Shown piece by piece: positions 10,824-59,509 of a DNA stretch of 64,000 nucleotides. Numbering within the stretch: the stretch's first letter is position 1; every line of letters begins with the position of its first letter. Position numbers and translations under genes: made by a program. This DNA is from Flavivirga jejuensis (lineage in GTDB: Bacteria > Bacteroidota > Bacteroidia > Flavobacteriales > Flavobacteriaceae). Under the pieces are notes generated by a model. The model saw only the letters and a program-made list of their open reading frames with translations, did no database searches and was not told the DNA's origin. The stretch covers positions 310,001 to 374,000 of the forward strand of contig NZ_JAUOEL010000001.1 in NCBI RefSeq assembly GCF_030540765.1, given 5' to 3'.

Positions 10824-12164
10824 TTATTTTATTTTAAAAATTAATAAATCTGTGAATCCTTTATTTTCTGGAATATCGCCATTTGAGCTATTAGATTCTC
10901 CGACAACAATAATACTTTTGTCATCAAGCTCAATGGCATCATATGCAAAATCAATATCGGAACCTCCAATGGTTTTTTGCCATTCTAGGATTGCATTAGC
11001 ATCAATTTTTACAACCCAGGCATCATTTTGTCCGTTGTTATTTGAAAGATTTCCGTCTGAACTTCTTGAGCTTCCAGAAATAATGAACCCATTATCTTGA
11101 GTTTTAGAAATAGAGCGCCCAACATCAAAACTAGTACCGCCAATCGTTTTCTCCCAGATTAAATTTCCCGTTGGAGATATTTTAATAACCCATAAATCGG
11201 CAGCACCAAGATTGTTTGAAATGTCTAAATCTTTACTTCTAGTATCTCCAACAATAATATAGTTGCCATCTCCAGAACTTGTTATGGCTCGTGCTTCATC
11301 AATTTCTGAACCACCAAAAGATTTTTCCCAAATTAATGCTCCAATTTCAGATATTTTAATGACCCAAAAATCATAAGATCCTTTGTTTTCTTTTATGTCG
11401 ATATCATCACTATCTGAAGATCCTACAATAATATAGCCATTATCATCCGTTTGAATAACATCATAAGGGGTGTCTGTATAAGTGCCGCCAAAAAATTTAC
11501 TCCATTGTTTTTCGCCAGAAGCATTGAGTTTAATAGCCCAATAATCACCGCCAGCATGTTTTTTTGAAACTAAAGATTTACTGTTTCCTTCACCATTTGA
11601 AGCCGTGACATCTAAAACGCCTGTTAAGAGATAACCGCTATCTTTTGTTTCAATTATTGAAATACCACTATCTGCTCCAGAAAAACCAAAAGATTTTTGC
11701 CATAACATGGAACCCTCAATATTTAATTTTGAAACCCAAAAATCGTTAGAACCAGAATTATCGGTTACTGCACCATCGTTACTTGAACTAAATCCAATAA
11801 TTGCGAAACCACTATCTTTTGTTTGGATAATTTTGTTACCTCTATCATCATCACTGCCTCCATAAGTTTTTTGCCATTGTAAATTATTGTTGGCGTCAAA
11901 TTTAAGAAGCCAATAATCAAAAGATTCATTTTGCTTATCGGTTATATCGTCGTTTATACTTTGTGTATACCCCAAAATAGCATACCCACCATCATTTGTT
12001 TTGGTAATGGATTGTGCACTTTCGTTTAAAGAACCTCCGTAGATTTCTATTTCTGAGATTATTTGGGTTGTATTTAAATTATTAGAATCGTCTGAAGAAC
12101 AATTTAATAAAGTCATAAATGTGACTAAAACATAAAGACTAATATTAAATTTTATTTGTATCAT
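10824..12164 (-). CDS. Lipoprotein with about seven beta-propeller-type repeats
   Basis: A 446-residue lipoprotein (lipobox MTLLNC). About seven ~55-residue repeats follow the pattern GGS-x-D-x(4)-I-x(2)-T-x-D-x-G-(Y/F)-x-I-x-G-x-S-x(2)-DGD, then a D-F/Y-W-V-x-K acidic-to-aromatic turn and W-x-K-x(2)-GG. Seven such units would form a closed propeller. No catalytic motif is visible. It lies 1 bp from the MbnP gene, within the same minus-strand operon, and may be an extracellular binding or scaffold protein. Confidence 0.75.
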   Translation of the reverse strand: MIQIKFNISLYVLVTFMTLLNCSSDDSNNLNTTQIISEIEIYGGSLNESAQSITKTNDGGYAILGYTQSINDDITDKQNESFDYWLLKFDANNNLQWQKTYGGSDDDRGNKIIQTKDSGFAIIGFSSSNDGAVTDNSGSNDFWVSKLNIEGSMLWQKSFGFSGADSGISIIETKDSGYLLTGVLDVTASNGEGNSKSLVSKKHAGGDYWAIKLNASGEKQWSKFFGGTYTDTPYDVIQTDDNGYIIVGSSDSDDIDIKENKGSYDFWVIKISEIGALIWEKSFGGSEIDEARAITSSGDGNYIIVGDTRSKDLDISNNLGAADLWVIKISPTGNLIWEKTIGGTSFDVGRSISKTQDNGFIISGSSRSSDGNLSNNNGQNDAWVVKIDANAILEWQKTIGGSDIDFAYDAIELDDKSIIVVGESNSSNGDIPENKGFTDLLIFKIK

Positions 12165-12184
12165 AAGAATTTGCTTATTAAATG

Positions 12185-13447
12185 CTATAAGTCACTTTTC
12201 CTTACTATAAATAAGCCTTTTTCAATATCACTAATAACAATATTTCCACTTTCAAAATAAGGATAAACACTCCACACGCCATTAAAATTCGCATTATCAT
12301 CAGCTGGGTATGTGTCAAAATAACCAATTTCGGTCATGGAATCAGTTGAAGAATCAATATTAGAAATATCAAGGACTCTTAACCCAGCTCTATAATTTGC
12401 TAAATAGTAAGTGTCTTCTTTAACATAGCCATTATGATCAATGGCGAGTGTTGGACCAAAATAGGTAGATGATAAAACAGGGTTGTCGAGGTCGTTAAAA
12501 TCAAACACTATGGTTTTAGTATTATTCCCAAAAAATTGTTCATCAAGTTCATCTCCCAAAATAAAATATCGTTGATTTTTGGCAAACCAACCTTGGTGTG
12601 TATAACCAGAATTAGGGTATGTAACATCTGAGATGAATTGTGGATTTGCCTTATCGGTTACATCAATAATAACAACTTTGTTAGTTCCAGAGGTAGTCCC
12701 GTTACTGCCAATATAAATTTCACGCCCAGTATAATCTGAATCGGGGCCACTATAAGTTACAACTTGCGCATCATGTGAATAACCATCTGCATCGTAACCA
12801 CCAGCACTAACTGGATTTAAAGGATCTGAAATGTCTATAAAGTTAGGGCCTCCATTAAACGTATTACAGCCAACCAAATACGCAAAGCCTTTATCTTCAT
12901 TAATTACTATATTGTGGCAACTTCCAACACCATTATAAAGAGCATCGGTTGAGAAAACTTCTGGTGGGTTTGCAACATTGCGTAATCGAGTTAAATCAAA
13001 TACTTGCATGCCATGTGCACCAACAAGATCAGCAACTATGAAAGCATAATTGTTATAAACTTTAACATCTCTCCAAGAATTGTCAACCGTTTCTGTTGGT
13101 AGATTCCCTAAATATAGGGGATTTGCTGGGTCTGTAATATCAATAAAAGCAACATTTGTGTTTGTTGCTAATATAGCGTATTCATTTCCAGTAGTAAGAT
13201 CTGTCCAACCCCAAGAGTCGTTACCAGCATCAGCATCAAATATGTCTAGAGATAAATGTGCTATTAAATCATAACCGTTACATGGGTAAATATCTGCGAA
13301 ACCATTTATGCAAGGTGCTAATGTTTCAGTTTCAGTTTCAAGAATAGGGATATTATTATTTCTGTCACAAGATTGTACAGATAAAAATAATAGATAGCTT
13401 AAAATAGAGGCTTTAATAAAACGAATACTTTTTTTTAAGTAATTCAT
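12185..13447 (-). CDS. LVIVD-repeat (choice-of-anchor B type) lipoprotein
   Basis: A 420-residue lipoprotein (lipobox SVQSC) with repeated LVIVD-like units such as VAFIDITDPANPLYLGNL, MQVFDLTRLRNV, NFIDISDPLNPVSAGGY and KVVIIDVTDKANPQFISDV. These form a beta-propeller. The HDGY-type segments SHDAQVVTYSGPD and IDHNGYVKEDTYYLANYRAGLRVLDI are typical of the choice-of-anchor B family, normally surface-exposed. First gene of the four-gene operon ending with the dihaem cytochrome; its role there is unknown. Confidence 0.8.
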   Translation of the reverse strand: MNYLKKSIRFIKASILSYLLFLSVQSCDRNNNIPILETETETLAPCINGFADIYPCNGYDLIAHLSLDIFDADAGNDSWGWTDLTTGNEYAILATNTNVAFIDITDPANPLYLGNLPTETVDNSWRDVKVYNNYAFIVADLVGAHGMQVFDLTRLRNVANPPEVFSTDALYNGVGSCHNIVINEDKGFAYLVGCNTFNGGPNFIDISDPLNPVSAGGYDADGYSHDAQVVTYSGPDSDYTGREIYIGSNGTTSGTNKVVIIDVTDKANPQFISDVTYPNSGYTHQGWFAKNQRYFILGDELDEQFFGNNTKTIVFDFNDLDNPVLSSTYFGPTLAIDHNGYVKEDTYYLANYRAGLRVLDISNIDSSTDSMTEIGYFDTYPADDNANFNGVWSVYPYFESGNIVISDIEKGLFIVRKSDL

Positions 13448-13732: not shown

Positions 13733-14779
13733 ATGATAGAAGATAAAAATCAAGAGAGAACTCAATTAAGTGATTTGGGAGAATTTGGACTTATAGATCA
13801 TCTCACCAAGAATTTTAAAATTAATCATAAATCGACAGTTAAAAGTATTGGAGATGATGCTGCTGTTTTAGATTTTAAAAGTAAAAAAATGGTTGTCACA
13901 ACCGATTTACTTATAGAAGGTGTACATTTTGATTTAAGCTACATGCCTTTAAAGCATTTAGGATATAAGGCGGTTATTGTAAATTTATCTGATGTGTATG
14001 CTATGAATGCAAAAGCGACACAAATTACAGTCTCTATAGCGGTGTCTAATAGGTTTCCGTTAGAGGCTCTTGAGGATTTGTATGCAGGAATAGAAACTGC
14101 TGCAAAGATTTATAATATCGATGTTGTTGGAGGAGACACAACATCTTCTTTAACAGGGTTGTTAATTTCTGTAACAGCTATTGGGGAAATTGAGAATAAT
14201 AATGAAGTATACAGGGATGGTGCTAAACCTAACGATTTATTGGTAGTTACAGGAGATTTAGGAGCTGCTTATATGGGATTACAGGTGCTCGAACGCGAAA
14301 AAGAAGTGTACAAAGTGAATCCTAATAGCCAGCCTGATTTGGAACTTTATTCTTATATTATAGAACGTCAATTGAAGCCCGAAGCTCGAAAGGATATTAT
14401 TAAACTATTAAAAGATTTAGAAGTAAAACCATCTTCAATGATTGATATAAGTGATGGTTTATCTTCCGAGATTATACATTTATGTAAGCAGAGTAAAGTG
14501 GGTTGTGATTTGTATGAAGAAAAAATTCCGTTAGATCCACAGGTAATTTCAACTTGCGAAGAGTTTAATATTGATAGTACGACGGTTGCTTTAAATGGGG
14601 GTGAGGATTATGAACTGTTATTCACAGTTTCTCAAGAGGACTATCCTAAAATAAAAGCAAATCCTAACCTCACTGTAATTGGATATGTGAAAGAAGAGCA
14701 AGCAGGTATACATCTAGTAACTAGAGCAGATACTCAAATACCTATTAAAGCTCAGGGTTGGAAAAATTTCAATGCTTAA
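13733..14779 (+). CDS. thiL: Thiamine-monophosphate kinase
   Basis: ThiL (348 aa) phosphorylates thiamine monophosphate to the cofactor thiamine diphosphate. Family motifs are intact: LGEFGLIDHL at the N-terminus, then IGDDAAVLDF, the metal-binding TTDLLIEGVHFD, then GYKAVIVNLSDVYAMNA and VVGGDTTSS, and near the C-terminus MIDISDGLSSEI with NGGEDYELLF. No other thiamine gene is adjacent. It ends 11 bp inside the convergent small gene downstream. Confidence 0.96.
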   Translation: MIEDKNQERTQLSDLGEFGLIDHLTKNFKINHKSTVKSIGDDAAVLDFKSKKMVVTTDLLIEGVHFDLSYMPLKHLGYKAVIVNLSDVYAMNAKATQITVSIAVSNRFPLEALEDLYAGIETAAKIYNIDVVGGDTTSSLTGLLISVTAIGEIENNNEVYRDGAKPNDLLVVTGDLGAAYMGLQVLEREKEVYKVNPNSQPDLELYSYIIERQLKPEARKDIIKLLKDLEVKPSSMIDISDGLSSEIIHLCKQSKVGCDLYEEKIPLDPQVISTCEEFNIDSTTVALNGGEDYELLFTVSQEDYPKIKANPNLTVIGYVKEEQAGIHLVTRADTQIPIKAQGWKNFNA

Positions 14780-30417: not shown

Positions 30418-31179
30418 ATGAAAATTATATCCTATAATGTAAACGGTATTCGAGCAGCAATTAACAAAGGCTTTGTTGATTGGTTAAAGAGTGCAAACCC
30501 AGATGTTATTTGTTTGCAAGAAATAAAGGCATTAAAAGAGCAACTAGATTTAGATATTTTTGTTGAGGCAGGGTATAAATACAACTATTGGTTTAGTGCT
30601 CAGAAAAAAGGATATAGTGGTGTCGCTATTTTAAGTAAAACGGAACCAAACCATATAGAATATGGAACAGGCATAGAGACGATGGATTTTGAAGGAAGAA
30701 ATATAAGAGCCGATTTTGAAGGTGTATCCGTTATGAGTTTGTATTTGCCATCTGGAACTAATGATGCACGTTTAAACCATAAGTTGGAGTATATGGATTT
30801 GTTTCAAGATTATATAAACAATCTTAAAAAGGATCTGCCTAATCTGGTTATTTGTGGTGATTATAATATTTGTCATGAAGCAATAGATATTCATAATCCT
30901 AAAATGAAAGGCGTATCAGGGTTTTTACCAGTAGAGCGCGAGTGGATTGGGAGCTTTATAGATAGTGGATTTATAGATTCGTTTAGATATTTAAATACAG
31001 AAACTCAACAATATAGTTGGTGGAGTTACCGTGCCAATGCCCGTGCAAATAACAAAGGCTGGCGATTAGATTATGCGATGGTTGCAGAACCATTACAAGA
31101 AAAAATAAAAAGAGCCGTTATACTCTCTGAGGCAGTACATAGTGATCATTGCCCCATTTTAGTAGAAATAGATAATTAA
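30418..31179 (+). CDS. xth: Exodeoxyribonuclease III / AP endonuclease
   Basis: A 253-residue DNase of the endonuclease/exonuclease/phosphatase fold acting in base-excision repair. Motifs: SYNVNGIRAA (Asn), CLQEIKA (catalytic Glu), SLYLPSGTND (Tyr), ICGDYNICH (Asp-x-Asn), WRLDYAMV and SDHCPILVEI (Asp-His). Length is normal. It appears to be followed by the OmpA gene in one transcript (26 bp gap). Confidence 0.95.
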   Translation: MKIISYNVNGIRAAINKGFVDWLKSANPDVICLQEIKALKEQLDLDIFVEAGYKYNYWFSAQKKGYSGVAILSKTEPNHIEYGTGIETMDFEGRNIRADFEGVSVMSLYLPSGTNDARLNHKLEYMDLFQDYINNLKKDLPNLVICGDYNICHEAIDIHNPKMKGVSGFLPVEREWIGSFIDSGFIDSFRYLNTETQQYSWWSYRANARANNKGWRLDYAMVAEPLQEKIKRAVILSEAVHSDHCPILVEIDN

Positions 31180-31223
31180 AACCCATTTTAAATAAGTAAT
31201 AACAGATGATGAACCTAAACAAA

Positions 31224-32183
31224 ATGATAAAAAAAACCTTATTAGCCATAGTAACTTTAACATTTTTAGTGTCTTGTGTATCTCCAAAAATATATAAAGA
31301 ATTAGAAGATAAATATGCTGATTTAAAGGAGGAGAATAGAAAACTTTCTAACGAAAATGATGACCTTTTAAGTGCTAAAACTGCTGCAGAAAATGAATTG
31401 AAACAAATTCAGAAAGACTATGATGAAGCGCTTCAACAACGCGATAAACTACAGTCAGATTATAATGCAGCAAAATCTAATTACGAGAACCTAAAAGCGT
31501 CTTATGATGCATTAGAAAAAAATAGCTCTAGCGCAATAGCAAGAAACTCTAAAAAGAATAGAGAGCTATTAGCACAATTAGAAGCAAAAGAACAAGCTTT
31601 GGCTGCCGAAAATGAACGTTTAGCGAAACTTAAAAAGGAACTGGAAGAGCGATCTAATCGAGTAGCAGAATTAGAGAATGTTATAGCTTCAAAAGATGCC
31701 GCGATGACGCAACTAAAAAATGCGATTTCTAAAGCTTTAACAGACTTTGAAGGTAAAGGTTTAACAGTAGAACAACGGGATGGAAAAGTCTATGTGTCTA
31801 TGGAGAACAAACTTTTATTTGGTTCGGGGAGTTGGGCCGTTGGTTCCGAAGGTAAAAGAGCGGTACAACAATTAGGAAGTGTGCTTGGCGATAATCCAGA
31901 TATTGCAGTTTTAATAGAAGGACATACAGATAATGTACCTTATAAAGGTAACGGACAATTAAGTGGTAACTGGGATTTATCAACCAAACGTGCTACAGCT
32001 ATTGTAAATATATTAAGAGAAAATGCAGCCATAAACCCTGAAAATTTAACGGCAGCTGGTCGTGGTGAGTTTGCACCTATTGCTTCAAATGATACGGCAA
32101 CAGGAAAAGCAAAAAATAGACGTATTGAGGTGATTTTAACACCAAAATTAGATGAGTTATCTAAGTTGTTAAACGATAATTAA
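31224..32183 (+). CDS. OmpA-family lipoprotein with coiled coil
   Basis: From ATG 31224 (319 aa; ATG 31206 is the in-frame alternative) a lipoprotein signal ends at LTFLVSC. Residues about 25-170 form a long coiled coil rich in Glu, Lys and Ala. The C-terminal OmpA peptidoglycan-binding domain shows NKLLFGSGSWAVGSEGK, EGHTDNVPYKG, NWDLSTKRATAIV and AKNRRIEVIL. It likely tethers the outer membrane to peptidoglycan. Confidence 0.92.
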   Translation: MIKKTLLAIVTLTFLVSCVSPKIYKELEDKYADLKEENRKLSNENDDLLSAKTAAENELKQIQKDYDEALQQRDKLQSDYNAAKSNYENLKASYDALEKNSSSAIARNSKKNRELLAQLEAKEQALAAENERLAKLKKELEERSNRVAELENVIASKDAAMTQLKNAISKALTDFEGKGLTVEQRDGKVYVSMENKLLFGSGSWAVGSEGKRAVQQLGSVLGDNPDIAVLIEGHTDNVPYKGNGQLSGNWDLSTKRATAIVNILRENAAINPENLTAAGRGEFAPIASNDTATGKAKNRRIEVILTPKLDELSKLLNDN

Positions 32184-54462: not shown

Positions 54463-54548
54463 ATAATTTAGGACTTATTTAGTTGTTTTTGTAATGTGGG
54501 GTAATGTGTTTGTGTATTAACTTAAATCTGATTCTTGAGAATCACATT

Positions 54549-54558
54549 GTTACCTGCT
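54549..54558 (-). repeat. Simple site at the 3' end of the hydrolase cassette
   Basis: On the plus strand GTTACCTGCT sits 4 bp beyond the stop codon of the hydrolase gene, nearly identical to GTTACCTGCC at 56450-56459 in the same position relative to the next cassette gene. No matching inverted copy was found upstream of the hydrolase gene, so this cassette boundary is incomplete or hybrid. Confidence 0.4.
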
Positions 54559-54562
54559 TGCT

Positions 54563-56092
54563 TTAATCCTTCAGTTGTTTCAATCTGTCAATTGCATTTT
54601 GATTTTCTGGATTTAGTTTCAAAGACTTTTTGTAATTCAAAATAGCGTTTTGGTAATCCTTATTGTAAAAATATGCTTCAGCTAAACTGTCATATAAATT
54701 TGCTGATTTTGGATAAAGATGTAAAGCCAACAAAAAGACATTAACTCCTTGTTTTATCTTGTTTTTATTAAAAGACAATCGTAATCCTAAAGTGTTCAAC
54801 ATTCCTTCTTGAAGTTCAAGATTTGGGTATTCAGCAATAGTTCTTTTATATAAAAGGATTAAATCTTGATAGTCTTGTTTATATGCTAAATCATTGAAAT
54901 CTTTATAGGAAAATTCCTTTTCAACAGCTTTTTTTGTTTGTTTTGAAATCAAACTTTCTGAAAAACCATTTTCAACAGATTTATTTTCAATGAAATCATT
55001 CGCCTTTTTTTTATTTTTTAGTGTTGCATTTAAAAACTGCAAAATATGAAGGCAAAGCAAATTGTAGGAAGCCATTATTTTTTCATCACTTTTATCTTGC
55101 CTTTTATCTCTGTTGGCAAACAAGACTCCAAACGAACTGAAATAGGAATGTGTGAGGTCGTGAAACCTATATCTGTAAACATTGCTATATTTTAAAGAGT
55201 CATATAATTGGAATTTATAATTTAATTCGGCAGGAATTTTATCGTTTCTCAAAACTTCTTTTGGAATCTCTTTTTGAGAGAAGTGGATGTAAGGAATTGT
55301 AAAGTTATCTAAATTAAAATATGGTGACTGTTCCAAAACAGGATAATTATACCTTTCTGCTCCATCCAAACTTACAATTGCATTTATATTCTTGTTTTTC
55401 ATTACCGTGATAGCGTTCGATAATCCACCAAAACTAAATCCCATTAATGCCACTTTTTCCGTATCAATATTCTTGTAGTTGTAAATTTCTTTAAGAAGGA
55501 ACTCAACATCTCTTGATTGCGTTTCCATATCTTTTGTGGTTGCTCCTTCTAACCAACGTGTGTCTGTTCCTTTTGAAGGGCTTGATATCACTACAAATCC
55601 GTTACTGGCTAAATATTCACATAATGCAAAATTCTCAATTGAAGAGGCTTGATAACTTGATGCATAAACTACGATTGGAAAATTTCCGCTTAACAATGTT
55701 GGATTAGAATAGGCATTTACTTTTTCAGAAAGATGAGCCTTGTTTTGTGCTGTGTTCGGTAAATAATGAAACCAATCCAATAAAAAATAGTTTGGCAAAT
55801 CTTTCCATTCTTCTTCTTCTTTTAAAATCTCTAAATAATTTAAAACGGTTAGCTGTTCGGAATTATTATCTTCAATTGTCGCAGGATACCAAATACTAAT
55901 TGGAACTGGCCTCTCGATAAGTTGGTTGTTAAACTCATTATGAATTCGGTAGGTTCTCGTGCTATCTTTGATTGTATAATGTTTGAAACCTACTTTGTAT
56001 TTTCCAGCTTTAAGGTTTATATCTTTTATAGATGTCTGCCCATAAACTATTGTTGATAGTAAAATACTTGTAATGAATATATTTAACCGCAT
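54563..56092 (-). CDS. Secreted alpha/beta hydrolase with C-terminal TPR
   Basis: From ATG 56092 (509 aa; ATG 56113 is seven codons upstream) a signal peptide ends VYGQ. The hydrolase domain resembles platelet-activating-factor acetylhydrolase/dienelactone hydrolase types: PISIWYPATIED, GNFPIVVYASSYQASS, nucleophile elbow ALMGFSFGGLSNA, and His in FHDLTHSYFS. The last 100 residues contain TPR-like helices (FLLALHLYPKSANLYDSLAEAYF, then YQNAILNYKKSLKLNPENQNA). It is a probable cassette gene of the array at 54.5-59.3 kb. Confidence 0.8.
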   Translation of the reverse strand: MRLNIFITSILLSTIVYGQTSIKDINLKAGKYKVGFKHYTIKDSTRTYRIHNEFNNQLIERPVPISIWYPATIEDNNSEQLTVLNYLEILKEEEEWKDLPNYFLLDWFHYLPNTAQNKAHLSEKVNAYSNPTLLSGNFPIVVYASSYQASSIENFALCEYLASNGFVVISSPSKGTDTRWLEGATTKDMETQSRDVEFLLKEIYNYKNIDTEKVALMGFSFGGLSNAITVMKNKNINAIVSLDGAERYNYPVLEQSPYFNLDNFTIPYIHFSQKEIPKEVLRNDKIPAELNYKFQLYDSLKYSNVYRYRFHDLTHSYFSSFGVLFANRDKRQDKSDEKIMASYNLLCLHILQFLNATLKNKKKANDFIENKSVENGFSESLISKQTKKAVEKEFSYKDFNDLAYKQDYQDLILLYKRTIAEYPNLELQEGMLNTLGLRLSFNKNKIKQGVNVFLLALHLYPKSANLYDSLAEAYFYNKDYQNAILNYKKSLKLNPENQNAIDRLKQLKD

Positions 56093-56180
56093 TATTTTTG
56101 AATTAGTGTCCATAATAAAGATGCCCTATTTTGATGATTGTTACAGGTCTAATGTTCGTTAAGGGACATGGTTTGCCAAC

Positions 56181-56459
56181 GTCTAGTATAAGAAATGTAG
56201 CGGATTTACGCACAAACTTTTCGGTTTACTATTCGCCTTCAATTTACAGAACTCGCTTCGAATTAAGCACTTAAACCGCTATTTTTTTTATATACAGTGT
56301 GGCTGTTGCACAAGTCAAAAAATATTGCAAAACACTTGTTTCTTGCATTTAAACAAACATAACAGACTGGTTTTTAGCTATATTTTATTGATTGTTATTG
56401 AAAAAAACAAGGTTTATTCAAAATCATGAGTTGTGCAACGGTAACCGTTGTTACCTGCC
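56181..56459 (-). repeat. attC-like spacer 3 (carries MITE copy A)
   Basis: Between the two flanking minus-strand genes. One arm GTATAAGAAATGTAGCGG (from about 56186) pairs imperfectly with CCGCTATTTTTTTTATATAC (to about 56295), a long stem of the attC type, and the spacer ends at the simple site GTTACCTGCC (56450-56459), which overlaps the stop codon of the next gene. After removing the inserted MITE and its duplicated target it would be about 130 bp long, within the attC size range. Confidence 0.6.
56301..56442. mobile_element. MITE copy A in attC-like spacer
   Basis: 142 bp with terminal inverted repeats GGCTGTTGCACAAGTCA (left) and TGAGTTGTGCAAC (right). Its body is about 95% identical by eye to copy C at 58267-58410. 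No ORF. Short imperfect direct repeats flank it (ACAGTGT left, AACCGTTGT right), compatible with an 8-bp target duplication that has since mutated. Confidence 0.75.
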
Positions 56460-57194
56460 GTATTTTTTCCATATTTTCTTGAATTTTTTTTCAGATGTCA
56501 GTAATAGTATAACTCCATTTATCGCTCTCGAACCATAAATACTTGCTGATTGTTCTTTTGTCAAATATTTAATGGTGTTAGTTTCTACTAGTAATAATTC
56601 TTTCAATAATTCCCTGTCTGCTAAAGGATATCCGTTGACAACAATTAAAGGCTCTGGATTATCATACCTGATTGTAACTTTAGCGTGTTGATTAGAATCA
56701 GATATTTTTATTTCTTTCGAGTTATTCTCTGTTTTTTCAGGATTGTAATTCAATACTTTAAAAACTAAAGAATCTACATATTTATAAAGCTTTTGTTCCG
56801 ACAGTTTGTCAAAATTCATAAGTTTGAGTTCTGGCTCATCTTTTTTATTCAATTCAATAATTCGGAATTTGTTAGTTAGATTTCCATTTTGGTAATATTC
56901 AATGATTTGTCCGAAATCTCTTTTTCTTAATTTAATTTTTTCTTTTCCAACAATTCCACTTATTCGAGGTGGTTCAGTACAAATGTTTACTTCGTTTGTC
57001 GTAAATTCTCTTTTTTCAATCCACCATTTTGTTTGATAACAATTTTTGATATTTCTATAAAATTTAATTGTGTCGGTTTTAAAAAATATTTCGCTATTGG
57101 TTCTCCATATTCCATTCAATTCCTTTTTCTTAATTTGAGAGAAAGAGAAGTTGGTTAATAATAAAAAGCTTATTGTTAAAGCAGTAATTTTCAT
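56451..57194 (-). CDS. Secreted protein with TonB-plug-like C-terminus (cassette gene)
   Basis: A 247-residue protein with signal peptide (ending FSFSQ). The N-terminal two thirds have no recognised fold. The C-terminal segment RYDNPEPLIVVNGYPLADREL, then IKYLTKEQSASIYGSRAINGVILLLT matches the plug sequence of SusC/TonB receptors (usual form VVDGVP..., ...A.AIYGSRGANGVI), but no barrel follows. It lies in a cassette bounded by GTTACCTGCC and GGTAGGTAAC. It may be a soluble decoy or a M56/TonB-system partner. Confidence 0.75.
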   Translation of the reverse strand: MKITALTISFLLLTNFSFSQIKKKELNGIWRTNSEIFFKTDTIKFYRNIKNCYQTKWWIEKREFTTNEVNICTEPPRISGIVGKEKIKLRKRDFGQIIEYYQNGNLTNKFRIIELNKKDEPELKLMNFDKLSEQKLYKYVDSLVFKVLNYNPEKTENNSKEIKISDSNQHAKVTIRYDNPEPLIVVNGYPLADRELLKELLLVETNTIKYLTKEQSASIYGSRAINGVILLLTSEKKFKKIWKKYGR

Positions 57195-57206
57195 TTGTGG
57201 TTATAT

Positions 57207-57498
57207 GGTAGGTAACGGTTGGTGTAAGGAAAGTACGAGTTTAAGAACGGCGATTTTCCGCAGGAAAATCGGAAGTTCGCAAACAAAGGACAGGCCTTAC
57301 GATTAAGCATTAAAAATAGTATTTTTTTTACACATTGTGGCTGTTGCACAACTACTTTTTTTGATTGAATTAGGTTATTTCTGAGAACTTTAAAAATAAT
57401 GAACATTGATAATCAGTATCTTAATAATTGTTTGGAAATTAAAACACATGATTTCCTAAAAATTTTGAGTTGTGCAACAGTCACCATTGTTGTAGTGC
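57207..57498 (-). repeat. attC-like spacer 2 (carries MITE copy B)
   Basis: Bounded by GGTAGGTAAC (57207-57216) and GTTGTAGTGC (57489-57498). Arms GTGTAAGGAAAGTAC (from 57222) and GTATTTTTTTTACAC (to about 57333) pair with a few G-T contacts; inside is the hairpin GATTTTCC-GCA-GGAAAATC (57252-57270), which recurs in spacer 1. This fits an attC-like folded site interrupted by a MITE. Confidence 0.6.
57339..57482. mobile_element. MITE copy B in attC-like spacer
   Basis: 144 bp with ends GGCTGTTGCACAACT and GAGTTGTGCAACAGTC, the same terminal repeats as copies A and C, but an unrelated AT-rich body. The direct repeats ACACATTGT (left) and CACCATTGT (right) suggest a target duplication of about 8 bp. 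Position in the spacer is the same as in copies A and C, which points to site-preferring insertion. Confidence 0.75.
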
Positions 57499-57502
57499 GT
57501 TT

Positions 57503-58123
57503 TTAGTATTTAAATTTCGATTTAATTCTTTTCCAAAAAGTTGGTTTTTCCTTTTTAGCGTTATCTTTTGTCAAGCCAAAAGTTATTGAACTTACGTGTC
57601 CGTCTTCATAATATTCAACTTGGTCAGCTTCTTCGGCTCCAGCATCCAAAAAGGCTTGTGTCAGGATTTCAGATTGTTCTCTTAACCCTTCCCATACAGG
57701 TGAGTCAAATACTTTGTTTTTTGCATCTCTATGCTCAAATTCGAAATCTTTGATTAGAGTCAAAATTGTCTGCATTGGTGAGATTCCAATAAGTTTTAAA
57801 TCCGAAATCAACCTGTCAAAATCGATATTCTCTTTAGTACGTTTAAGTTTACTTACCAATTCATTTTTTAAGTAGTTTTTAGCAACTTCTTCGGCTTTTT
57901 CCCTTGCTTTTTCTCCACCAATAAATCGTTCATCATATTCATTCGAACTGTCAATTTGATTTTCATTGTCAAGCATATCATAAACACACCACCACCAATA
58001 ATCTTCGTCCATCCATTCAGCTCGCAACATTAAACCTGACCATTTTGCTGTGCAATCATCATTCAAATCGCCATTCCATATTATTGGTTGGTCAAAATCT
58101 CTATTTTTTTCTATCGTTTTCAT
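57503..58123 (-). CDS. Hypothetical acidic protein (cassette gene)
   Basis: From ATG 58123 (206 aa) the protein begins MKTIEKNRDFDQPIIWNGD; codons further upstream run through the recombination site and are not used. It is soluble, rich in Asp, Glu and Trp (WMDEDYWWWCVYDML), with a central helical part (EKAREKAEEVAKNYLKNEL) and a basic end FWKRIKSKFKY. No family recognised. The cassette is bounded by the perfect pair GTTGTAGTGC / GCACTACAAC. Confidence 0.75.
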   Translation of the reverse strand: MKTIEKNRDFDQPIIWNGDLNDDCTAKWSGLMLRAEWMDEDYWWWCVYDMLDNENQIDSSNEYDERFIGGEKAREKAEEVAKNYLKNELVSKLKRTKENIDFDRLISDLKLIGISPMQTILTLIKDFEFEHRDAKNKVFDSPVWEGLREQSEILTQAFLDAGAEEADQVEYYEDGHVSSITFGLTKDNAKKEKPTFWKRIKSKFKY

Positions 58124-58136
58124 TGATTGGTCAAAT

Positions 58137-58426
58137 GCACTACAACGTTTATGTATAAGAATAGTGCGGTTTTGTGTGCGAGGATTTTCCGAAGGAAAAT
58201 CAGATGTAACAAAAATGCACGACACTTTGATTAAGCACTAAACCAAGCATTATTTTTATACGGTGTGGCTGTTGCACAAGTCAAAAAATATTGCAAAACA
58301 CTTGTTTCTTGCATTTAAACAAACATAACAGGCTGGTTTTTAGCTGTATTTTATTGATTATTATTGAAAAAACCATAGGTTTATTCAAAATCATGAGTTG
58401 TGCAACAGTCACCGGTGTTACCCAAC
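58137..58426 (-). repeat. attC-like spacer 1 (carries MITE copy C)
   Basis: Bounded by GCACTACAAC (58137-58146) and GTTACCCAAC (58417-58426). Arms GTATAAGAATAGTGC (from 58153) and GCATTATTTTTATAC (to about 58261) match at 13 of 15 positions; an inner hairpin GATTTTCC-GAA-GGAAAATC lies at 58183-58201. Without the MITE it would be about 118-130 bp. Confidence 0.6.
58267..58410. mobile_element. MITE copy C in attC-like spacer
   Basis: 144 bp, terminal repeats GGCTGTTGCACAAGTCA and TGAGTTGTGCAACAGTC, body nearly identical to copy A. Flanking direct repeats TACGGTGT / CACCGGTGT suggest an 8-bp duplication. The GG-x-CTGTTGCA terminus recalls IS6-family ends (8-bp duplications), a resemblance only. 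Confidence 0.75.
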
Positions 58427-58438
58427 GTTTTTTATTTA

Positions 58439-58912
58439 TTAAAAATCACCTGACCAATCAGGATATGCTATATGTCCCCAAAACATTCCGCTTTCAACAT
58501 TCAGAATATAAGTCAGATATTGTTCTTCTTTTGAAATATTCGCAATGAAGGTCAAATCCGTTTTAGGTATTTCAACATATTTTTCCGACATATTTTGCTC
58601 AAATGTTTCTATCGAATCGTTGTCTGGAAAGAACGGTAAAATTTTATCTGTATCCTCTTCAATATATTCCGCTGCGCTTGAGTAAGAATGGAAGTCCATT
58701 TTTGAAATGAAGTCAGAAGCATCTTCTTTGGTAAATTGTAAATGAACCCAAACATCACCTTCCAAACTGTCTCCGCAATTTATAATTCCCACATTATTTG
58801 GAAATTTTATTCCACTTGTTTTTTCAAAAAACTCAAAATCACAACTTCCTTTTGTCGGTTTTCCATTGCAGCTAATTAATAAAATTAATAAAGAAAAAAG
58901 TGTAATTCTCAT
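58439..58912 (-). CDS. Small lipoprotein (cassette gene)
   Basis: A 157-residue lipoprotein (MRITLFSLLILLISC, lipobox LLISC). The mature part CDFEFFEKTSGIKFPNNVGII, then EGDVWVHLQFTKEDASDFI and YLTYILNVESGMFWGHIAYP has no recognised family. It is the first cassette after the recombinase remnant and is bounded by the perfect inverted pair GTTACCCAAC (58417-58426) / GTTGGGTAAC (58926-58935). Confidence 0.75.
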   Translation of the reverse strand: MRITLFSLLILLISCNGKPTKGSCDFEFFEKTSGIKFPNNVGIINCGDSLEGDVWVHLQFTKEDASDFISKMDFHSYSSAAEYIEEDTDKILPFFPDNDSIETFEQNMSEKYVEIPKTDLTFIANISKEEQYLTYILNVESGMFWGHIAYPDWSGDF

Positions 58913-58940
58913 TGTGGTTTCAAATGTTGGGTAACAATTG

Positions 58941-58977
58941 TATAACTACAATAAATAGTGATTCTATTGTGGTTATA
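58941..58977 (-). repeat. Hairpin next to the recombinase remnant (attI/attC-like)
   Basis: TATAAC-t-ACAATA (58941-58953) pairs with TATTGT-g-GTTATA (58965-58977), a 12-bp stem with one central mismatch and 11-nt loop. It lies between the simple site of the first cassette and the recombinase stop at 58982, where an integron would have its attI or first attC. Confidence 0.5.
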
Positions 58978-58981
58978 TCGT

Positions 58982-59322
58982 TTATACATGCAATGTATTA
59001 CTTTTTAATAAAGTATCCAATGGACTTATAATGGTCTTATTGTTAATTTCAATAGTTTTGGTATAAATTTCTGTCGTTTTTGGCGAACTATGTCCTAGCA
59101 TATTCTGTAAATGACGAATATTTATGTTGTTTTCAATACAATGCAATGTGTAGCAAACCAATGGCGCAATGTATGTACTGTTGCCCATGGGTTCAAATTA
59201 GTATCGTTCACGACTTTTCTATATATGGCTCTTATGCTAGTGGTACTGTATTTACATCTTGTTTGTCCTTCAAATAGCCCAATAGCACGGATTTTTAATC
59301 CGTGATTCATTATCTTAAACAT
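58982..59322 (-). pseudogene. Tyrosine recombinase (phage-integrase family) C-terminal remnant, frameshifted
   Basis: Only the catalytic C-terminus remains. One frame (59322 to 59122) gives YSTTSIRAIYRKVVND, then VHTLRHWFATHCI with the conserved H-x-x-R. The next frame continues CIENNINIRHLQNMLGHSS then PKTTEIYTKTIEINNKT with the LGHSS His/Trp box and nucleophilic Tyr. The shift is caused by a tandem CAATG duplication at 59139-59148 (plus strand). The N-terminal SAM-like domain and first catalytic Arg are missing. It may once have mobilised the adjacent cassettes. Confidence 0.85.
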
Positions 59323-59509
59323 AACCCATTATATGAAGCTTTCACCTCACTACAAAAGCCTTCTTTTATTTATTTACGGGCACGGAAAACATTTCCGCGC
59401 TAGCGGGTTTCGTTGCGTGTTTCAGCACCTAATTTAGTAAATATAAACCGAATAGAAAATCCACGAATACTAGCAATTACTTGTAGGATACGGTGTTGAT
59501 CACCTGCTT

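Follow-up and report, generated by a model that had tools for sequence, protein, structure and literature searches.

Integrons are the closest described counterparts of the system presented here. They combine an integrase, IntI, with an attI site and attC sites, and include sedentary chromosomal integrons as well as clusters of attC sites lacking integron-integrases (CALIN). Our subject is a stretch of 64,000 nt from the flavobacterium Flavivirga jejuensis (contig NZ_JAUOEL010000001.1, positions 310,001 to 374,000), referred to as the window, in which a row of minus-strand genes stands behind the remnant of a tyrosine recombinase. A first reading made from the letters alone (the sequence-only reading) had taken this region for an integron-like cassette array. 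With a probability of roughly 88%, we regard it as the decayed remains of a cassette array, belonging to an integron-type system of the Flavobacteriaceae and certain other Bacteroidota.

Like integrons, this system shows mostly single-gene cassettes with private R' and R'' ends, folded sites with a bottom-strand bias, an attI-like junction beside the integrase (23 loci), long arrays, and arrays without an intact integrase. In contrast to integrons, its integrase has no I2 insert and mostly carries extra N-terminal residues, its R' is rarely of the form GTTRRRY, the L stem of its sites has fixed G-T wobbles and no consensus extrahelical base, and the integrase points in the same direction as the cassettes. 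The last feature is shared with same-direction integrons such as that of Treponema denticola, in which the integrase is co-directional with the array and is a canonical IntI. Xer and XerA recombinases likewise have no insert of I2 length. Xer acts on duplex dif sites and is not known for cassette arrays. The Xer/dif (pdif) modules, which represent XerC/XerD recombination on dif-like sites, are flanked by common duplex sites and not by private ones, whereas the sites of the family described here differ from cassette to cassette and covary.

In the literature, I2 is described as unique to these integrases, as necessary for cassette capture and as the source of single-strand recombination, and the lack of intermediates is named as an obstacle (PMC7790495). 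The insert is also called essential in a second study, although its incomplete conservation in a subgroup was already noted there (PMC8138268). A survey with IntegronFinder 2 gives one complete integron proper for the Bacteroidetes, in Salinibacter (PMC9024848). Our literature search, which covered titles and the beginnings of abstracts, with few subscription papers and no preprints, revealed no description of such arrays with an integrase devoid of I2.

The cassette array of the window

Read along the minus strand, the array begins with an attI-like end (..GTTATACAATT, followed directly by GTT) and continues with four units. Three of its genes had been described as each enclosed by a private GTT/AAC pair, and this proved correct: units 1 to 3 carry GTTNNNNNNN at the start and the complement at the end, with 10/10, 10/10 and 9/10 matching positions. 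The description of the units has to be amended in two respects. The fourth unit, with a hydrolase gene, retains an R'' (54549-54561) without a matching R', and its attC ends after a few bases; in addition, each of the three spacers holds a miniature inverted-repeat transposable element (MITE). Tight pairs with at most one mismatch surround 2 of the 50 open reading frames (ORFs) of at least 120 aa in the window, both of them cassette genes; this chance check misses the third cassette gene, the mechanical ORF start of which lies upstream of its own pair.

In the spacer after each of units 1 to 3, which is about 270 bp long, a MITE of 145-146 bp is inserted into an attC-like site. The long imperfect stems reported for these spacers were recovered independently by a covariance model, R1, which was built from 35 sites, all from other genomes, and matches all three spacers (E 1e-14 to 8e-9). 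Of the inner hairpin said to be common to the spacers, GATTTTCC/GGAAAATC, copies are present in two and absent from the third. The features, in plus-strand coordinates, are as follows.

58933..59407, minus strand: head repeat with leader, integrase C-terminus and attI-like end (blastn to other copies)
58985..59322, minus strand: C-terminal third of an I2-less tyrosine recombinase, in two frames with a 5-nt duplication (tblastn; intact homologue P0001, 372 aa)
58936..58986, minus strand: attI-like end, an imperfect inverted repeat (by eye) with the ..GTTATACAATT-GTT junction (sequence; same placement with respect to the integrase in 23 loci elsewhere)
58926..58935, minus strand: R' of cassette 1, GTTACCCAAC on the minus strand and GTTGGGTAAC on the plus strand (sequence)
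58439..58912, minus strand: cassette 1 gene, 157 aa, lipoprotein-like (by eye), no Pfam family
58417..58426, minus strand: R'' of cassette 1, GTTACCCAAC on the plus strand, 10/10 to its own R'
58144..58419, minus strand: attC-like site 1, split by a MITE; R1 match at 58144-58267 (E=1e-14)
58266..58411, no strand assigned: MITE inside attC-like site 1, ends TGRCTGTTGCACAA
58137..58146, minus strand: R' of cassette 2, GTTGTAGTGC, GCACTACAAC on the plus strand (sequence)
57503..58123, minus strand: cassette 2 gene, 206 aa if the start is the ATG at 58123, no Pfam family
57489..57498, minus strand: R'' of cassette 2, GTTGTAGTGC on the plus strand, 10/10
57214..57491, minus strand: attC-like site 2, MITE at 57338-57483; model match 57214-57339 (R1, E=2.9e-11)
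57207..57216, minus strand: R' of cassette 3, GTTACCTACC, GGTAGGTAAC on the plus strand (sequence)
56451..57194, minus strand: cassette 3 gene, 247 aa, one Pfam match below cut-off, to a family other than plug
56450..56459, minus strand: R'' of cassette 3, GTTACCTGCC on the plus strand, 9/10
56178..56452, minus strand: attC-like site 3, MITE at 56300-56444; model match 56178-56301 (R1, E=8e-9)
54563..56113, minus strand: unit 4 gene, 516-aa hydrolase with TPR; unit start fused, own R' lost
54540..54561, minus strand: R'' of unit 4 (GCAAGCAGGTAAC) with the opening bases of a truncated attC (homology with genome G005 stops here)

Among the proposed cargo, the hydrolase stands, while the lipoprotein-like and plug-like characters are seen by eye and have no Pfam support; in the cassette 3 protein, it is a motif of the C-terminus that looks plug-like. 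The MITE, 145-147 bp long, was also seen elsewhere. It lies inside an attC-like site, just past the AAC of R'', in 15/15 copies with recognisable ends (the three of the window and 12 places in loci L009-L057; flanks by eye, loci chosen by similarity to one such spacer), and appears to be an element targeting attC.

The recombinase relic had been rightly placed at the head of the array, and its direction of transcription is that of the cassettes. Its two pieces in tblastn (59322-59140 and 59152-58985) are 100% and 93% identical to the query fragment. It forms part of the head repeat of about 474 bp, for which nine copies in the genome are among the blastn matches listed: six at 215-230 kb of C29, a broken one at 161 kb of C29, one on C31, and the one in the window. 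The 5-nt duplication of the window is common to two of the C29 copies, and four copies contain an open frame of 111 aa. Six heads in locus L010 and one in L013 pass directly into GTT, and the sequence downstream of them differs. Copies are located at 58933-59407 of the window, in L010 (5492-19929), in L009 (7870-8266) and in L013 (8258-8708); in those inspected, the left end of the head, CCCGYTAGCGCGG, adjoins different sequence. Repeated attI-like heads of its own were also observed in genome G006.

Model R1 detects at least 37 attC-like sites in the F. jejuensis genome at E<=0.001. An intact integrase of the family was not found in this genome, where the closest other copy (L004) lacks the Box I arginine, and the NCBIfam integron-integrase model TIGR02249 gave no match there at E<=1e-25. 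With a broken integrase, MITEs in all three attC-like sites and a fused last unit, the array of the window is most likely stranded, and it would probably not move without an integrase provided in trans.

Private ends and folded sites

Pairing of the cassette ends was determined in 92 loci with sites located by the L stem alone, and hence blind to R; an earlier scan by R'/R'' motif had been too noisy and was replaced by this detector and then by R1. Comparing the 7 nt beside GTT/AAC with at most one mismatch, neighbouring ends of the same cassette match in 94/134 cases, ends across one attC in 16/234 and other pairs in 36/822. These counts include some palindromic sites on both strands, L118 and L129 as parts of one contig, and three copies of one cassette from L123. 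Shuffled sequences of 40 loci contained 17 sites and 5 neighbouring pairs, none of which matched.

The alignment of 35 bottom strands gives an L stem of 17 pairs, formed in 93.1% of the cells. Both sides have changed in 13 of these pairs (shuffle mean 8.5; 0/500 shuffles as high), pairing falls to 34% when the partner is slid by one column, and RNAalifold independently predicts the same stem with 14 pairs. Covariation and private pairing are therefore demonstrated as properties of these sites. One pair of the L stem is G-U in 35/35 sites and another in 29/35, corresponding to A-C mismatches in the top strand. A consensus bulge was not found in the L stem, the sole extra column of which is empty in 31/35 rows. 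According to predicted DNA folding energies, the bottom strand is the more stable one in 95/108 sites (top strand in 7, tie in 6); when direction is set by the integrase, this holds for 96/110 sites (top 6, tie 8) and 27/29 loci, so that the strand bias is established as well. The sites fall mainly into two length classes, 121-127 and 179-191 nt; some are much shorter, at about 45-60 nt. R' fits GTTRRRY in 11/127 cassettes, a set which includes a few near-identical copies, and the fourth position is a purine in 122/127.

These data bear on two explanations that dispense with an integron-type mechanism. Double-strand recombination by XerC/XerD on dif-like modules, in which the hairpins would be incidental, is very improbable: a double-strand site needs no R'', but here every cassette has an R' and R'' of its own that covary, and both the bottom-strand bias and the fixed G-T wobble would have no obvious role on a duplex. 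The other possibility, that fixed chromosomal genes lie between repeat elements (terminators, repetitive extragenic palindromes or MITEs) without any cassette mobility, can point to the MITE and the hairpins in the spacers. We consider it the most improbable of all alternatives, as a terminator would favour the sense strand while it is the opposite strand that folds better, the pairs are private to cassettes, and the same cassettes are present in different neighbourhoods with borders at GTT.

Integrases, junctions and shared cassettes in related bacteria

Among 60 related genomes, the best relatives of the relic are full-length proteins: P0001 (372 aa, genome G014), P0002 (G024) and P0003 (G032). 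The search for related loci used the 80 best entries of a longer list; judged by their titles, most of them come from Bacteroidota and a smaller share from other phyla. After removal of 11 short or duplicate integrase rows, the IntI-specific insert (I2, about 42 residues) was absent from 84/84 relatives and present in 19/19 canonical IntI; correspondingly, the interval between the KDR and HxLRH motifs is 58-65 residues in all of the former versus 102-108 in all of the latter. In the tree calculated from the same rows, the IntI proteins form one clade (SH-aLRT 96) with these integrases outside. The assumption of a divergent type made in the sequence-only reading has been borne out and extends further than expected, to an integrase lineage without the IntI-specific insert. 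The structure of PDB entry 2a3v aligns to the integrase in two blocks (6-180 and 245-318). Xer/XerA proteins (PDB 4a8e, 5hxy) are the best PDB sequence matches and the top fold match, where fold matches cover residues 103-371, outside the N-terminal 90 or so.

An ordinary sedentary chromosomal integron with a diverged intI would have the same cassette logic and bottom-strand bias. In its favour, TIGR02249 matches the three proteins tested, in two stretches with 181-203 bits, and the insert is not fully conserved in the integron-like subgroup of PMC8138268. These scores are below the curated cut-off of 265, and at that cut-off no canonical IntI was detected in any of the 18 genomes tested. Model R1 had no match in any of 60 genomes of Pseudomonadota, although canonical IntI is present in 11 of them, a control which shows that R1 ignores ordinary genomes and known arrays and which says nothing about its sensitivity. 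Together with the lack of the insert, the exclusion from the IntI clade and the rarity of GTTRRRY, this makes a true IntI integron very unlikely. Judged by the insert and by GTTRRRY, the system is not a member of the IntI integrons; it is a divergent, I2-less integron-type lineage, decayed in the window.

Two further observations concern the integrase and the region upstream of its gene. P0001 to P0003 and members of A1/A4 have an additional alpha/beta part from residue 1 to about 90, before the SAM-like domain, which is mostly absent from IntI and gave no Pfam match in the three proteins tested. Upstream of the integrase, a divergent gene of 115-158 aa with CxxC motifs was seen in L115 (10672-11037), L117 (1262-1738) and L118 (3402-3749), with no Pfam or NCBIfam match in the two tested.

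Linkage of integrase, junction and array is demonstrated in part of the family. A first cassette border lies within 450 nt past the integrase stop, in the same direction, in 23/91 placed loci, at a distance of 27-155 nt in 22 of them and of 407 nt in one. The attI-like junction beside the integrase is present in these 23 loci, while the window retains it beside a relic only. A palindrome had at first seemed a general mark of the integrase-proximal border, an impression that was dropped: an exact palindrome with arms of at least 8 nt precedes the first border in 11/23 loci (shuffles 5/460). In L115, the first border follows 69 nt past the integrase stop, with five attC-like sites in a chain, each with its private partner. 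On the array strand of L123 (genome G025), 16 sites were detected and 15 are linked; the model matches listed for this locus span about 58 kb (2733284-2791656). Genome G025 contains at least 58 attC-like sites, and a second cluster of R1 sites, about 39 kb in size, was noticed on the same contig (G025:C1:2219417-2258873). Numbers per genome are lower bounds, with at most 58 candidates scored.

Altogether, R1 matches 42/60 related genomes, that of F. jejuensis included. Integrase and sites occur together in 32 genomes, the integrase alone in 2, sites alone in 10, and neither in 16 (Fisher 5.7e-6). Outside chromosomes, the Chryseobacterium plasmid NZ_CP041688 has an integrase together with three R1 sites and a single private pair that matches exactly.

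Cassettes with GTT borders are demonstrably common to several settings. L123 contains one cassette of 557-560 bp three times (96.8-99.8% identity) with GTT on both sides, two copies in tandem and one between other cassettes. A cassette of 1.3 kb is 95% alike in L150, from a flavobacterial metagenome-assembled genome, and in L262, from the genus of the window; the homology extends over 11732-13078 for a cassette at 11735-13055, and nothing else is alike in the 4.3 kb compared. L180 and L260 have a cassette body and site in common (92%, homology from 21 nt inside the border), and L160 and L050 a cassette from GTT through R'' (86%). The hydrolase gene of the window recurs with other neighbours in G005 (85%, without the unit start) and G006 (77%), where the unit retains its R' directly behind an attI-like end; no cassette borders were seen around the homologue that the cassette 2 gene has in G005:C12. 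The comparison of related genomes proposed at the outset thus showed that cassettes recur in different surroundings and that their homology stops at GTT or close to it. Duplication and shared cassettes represent gain, loss or duplication at the border between G and TT, where the exact exchanged bond is indistinguishable from sequence.

The cargo is diverse. The 127 cassettes have a median length of 816 bp, and the longest ORF reads forwards in 111/119 of those with an ORF of at least 50 aa. Of 111 cassette proteins, set A5 comprises 102 (9 were left out), with matches to 54 Pfam families, none in more than two proteins, and to 15 PADLOC models.

A proposed mechanism and its significance

The integron-type reading of the cassettes was upheld, mostly in relatives of F. 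jejuensis, by their private ends and GTT-bordered movement, by the attC-like sites and by an integrase that is co-directional and adjoins an attI-like junction. In our view, the system very probably works like an integron. An intact copy comprises an I2-less tyrosine recombinase, then an attI-like junction (with a palindrome in roughly half of the cases), then co-directional, mostly single-gene cassettes, each with one attC-like site and with R'' and R' ends of its own. The bottom strand can fold to a hairpin with an R stem, a short asymmetric spacer and the 17-pair L stem, and would be joined at GTT to attI or to another attC. The linked integrase is presumably the recombinase, and the folded bottom strand its probable substrate. 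Polarity would be set by the fixed G-T wobbles and not by extrahelical bases read by I2.

Several points weigh against this interpretation. The detector linked a same-strand downstream site to 30/91 placed integrases, or 27/59 of those with at least 1.5 kb downstream, and R1 matches 9/66 further integrase loci. Much of the integrase family, above all outside the Flavobacteriaceae, is without a demonstrated array; the site finder relies on flavobacterial motifs, which leads to an under-count in other orders, and the training set of R1 consisted of Flavobacteriaceae-like sites. The palindrome is clear in 11/23 loci only, and that of L121 is probably part of an attC. In shuffled sequence, 2/17 chance sites had a partner within 4 kb. 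Ten of the 60 genomes have sites without an integrase at the threshold used, two show the reverse, and the Fisher p-value ignores shared ancestry. Recombination by this integrase is itself an inference, and XerC/D acting in trans may be an alternative recombinase.

The attC sites of Polaribacter phage P12002L are a further close counterpart. Site P12002L_attC2 of Polaribacter phage P12002L was recombined by IntI1 as a bottom strand, with no recombinants as a top strand, while attC1 failed with IntI1 (PMC9892861). The enzyme tested was IntI1 and not a flavobacterial one. The phage genome (L264) has two R1 matches, at 14503-14624 and 31118-31313, and short sites seen by eye at about 30040 and 30930 with GCATTAAAACG-like loops as in L010.

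A separate observation concerns plasmid pHH1107 (L265, 4070-6180), where TnpF, a shortened relative of the integrase (52% to P0001 over residues 112-337), stands directly before tet(X3). What follows tet(X3) looks, by eye, like the beginning of an attC-like site; R' and R'' agree in 7/10 positions, no pair was found at the script threshold, and the best model match has E 0.16. This arrangement is a lead on how tet(X) may have left the Bacteroidota, nothing more.

Returning to the integron-type reading, we lean towards a second integron lineage in the Flavobacteriaceae and part of the remaining Bacteroidota, whose integrase never had or has lost I2 and would recombine folded single-stranded attC sites, the G-T wobbles choosing the strand, so that capture would proceed without I2. 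The integrase of this system, intact in related bacteria, is without the part thought indispensable for gene capture of the integron kind. As software recognises integron integrases by their I2 domain (PMC9668308), a system by which a major environmental group shares genes may have been overlooked. If the proposed mechanism is true, the origin of single-strand recombination would become testable with natural enzymes.

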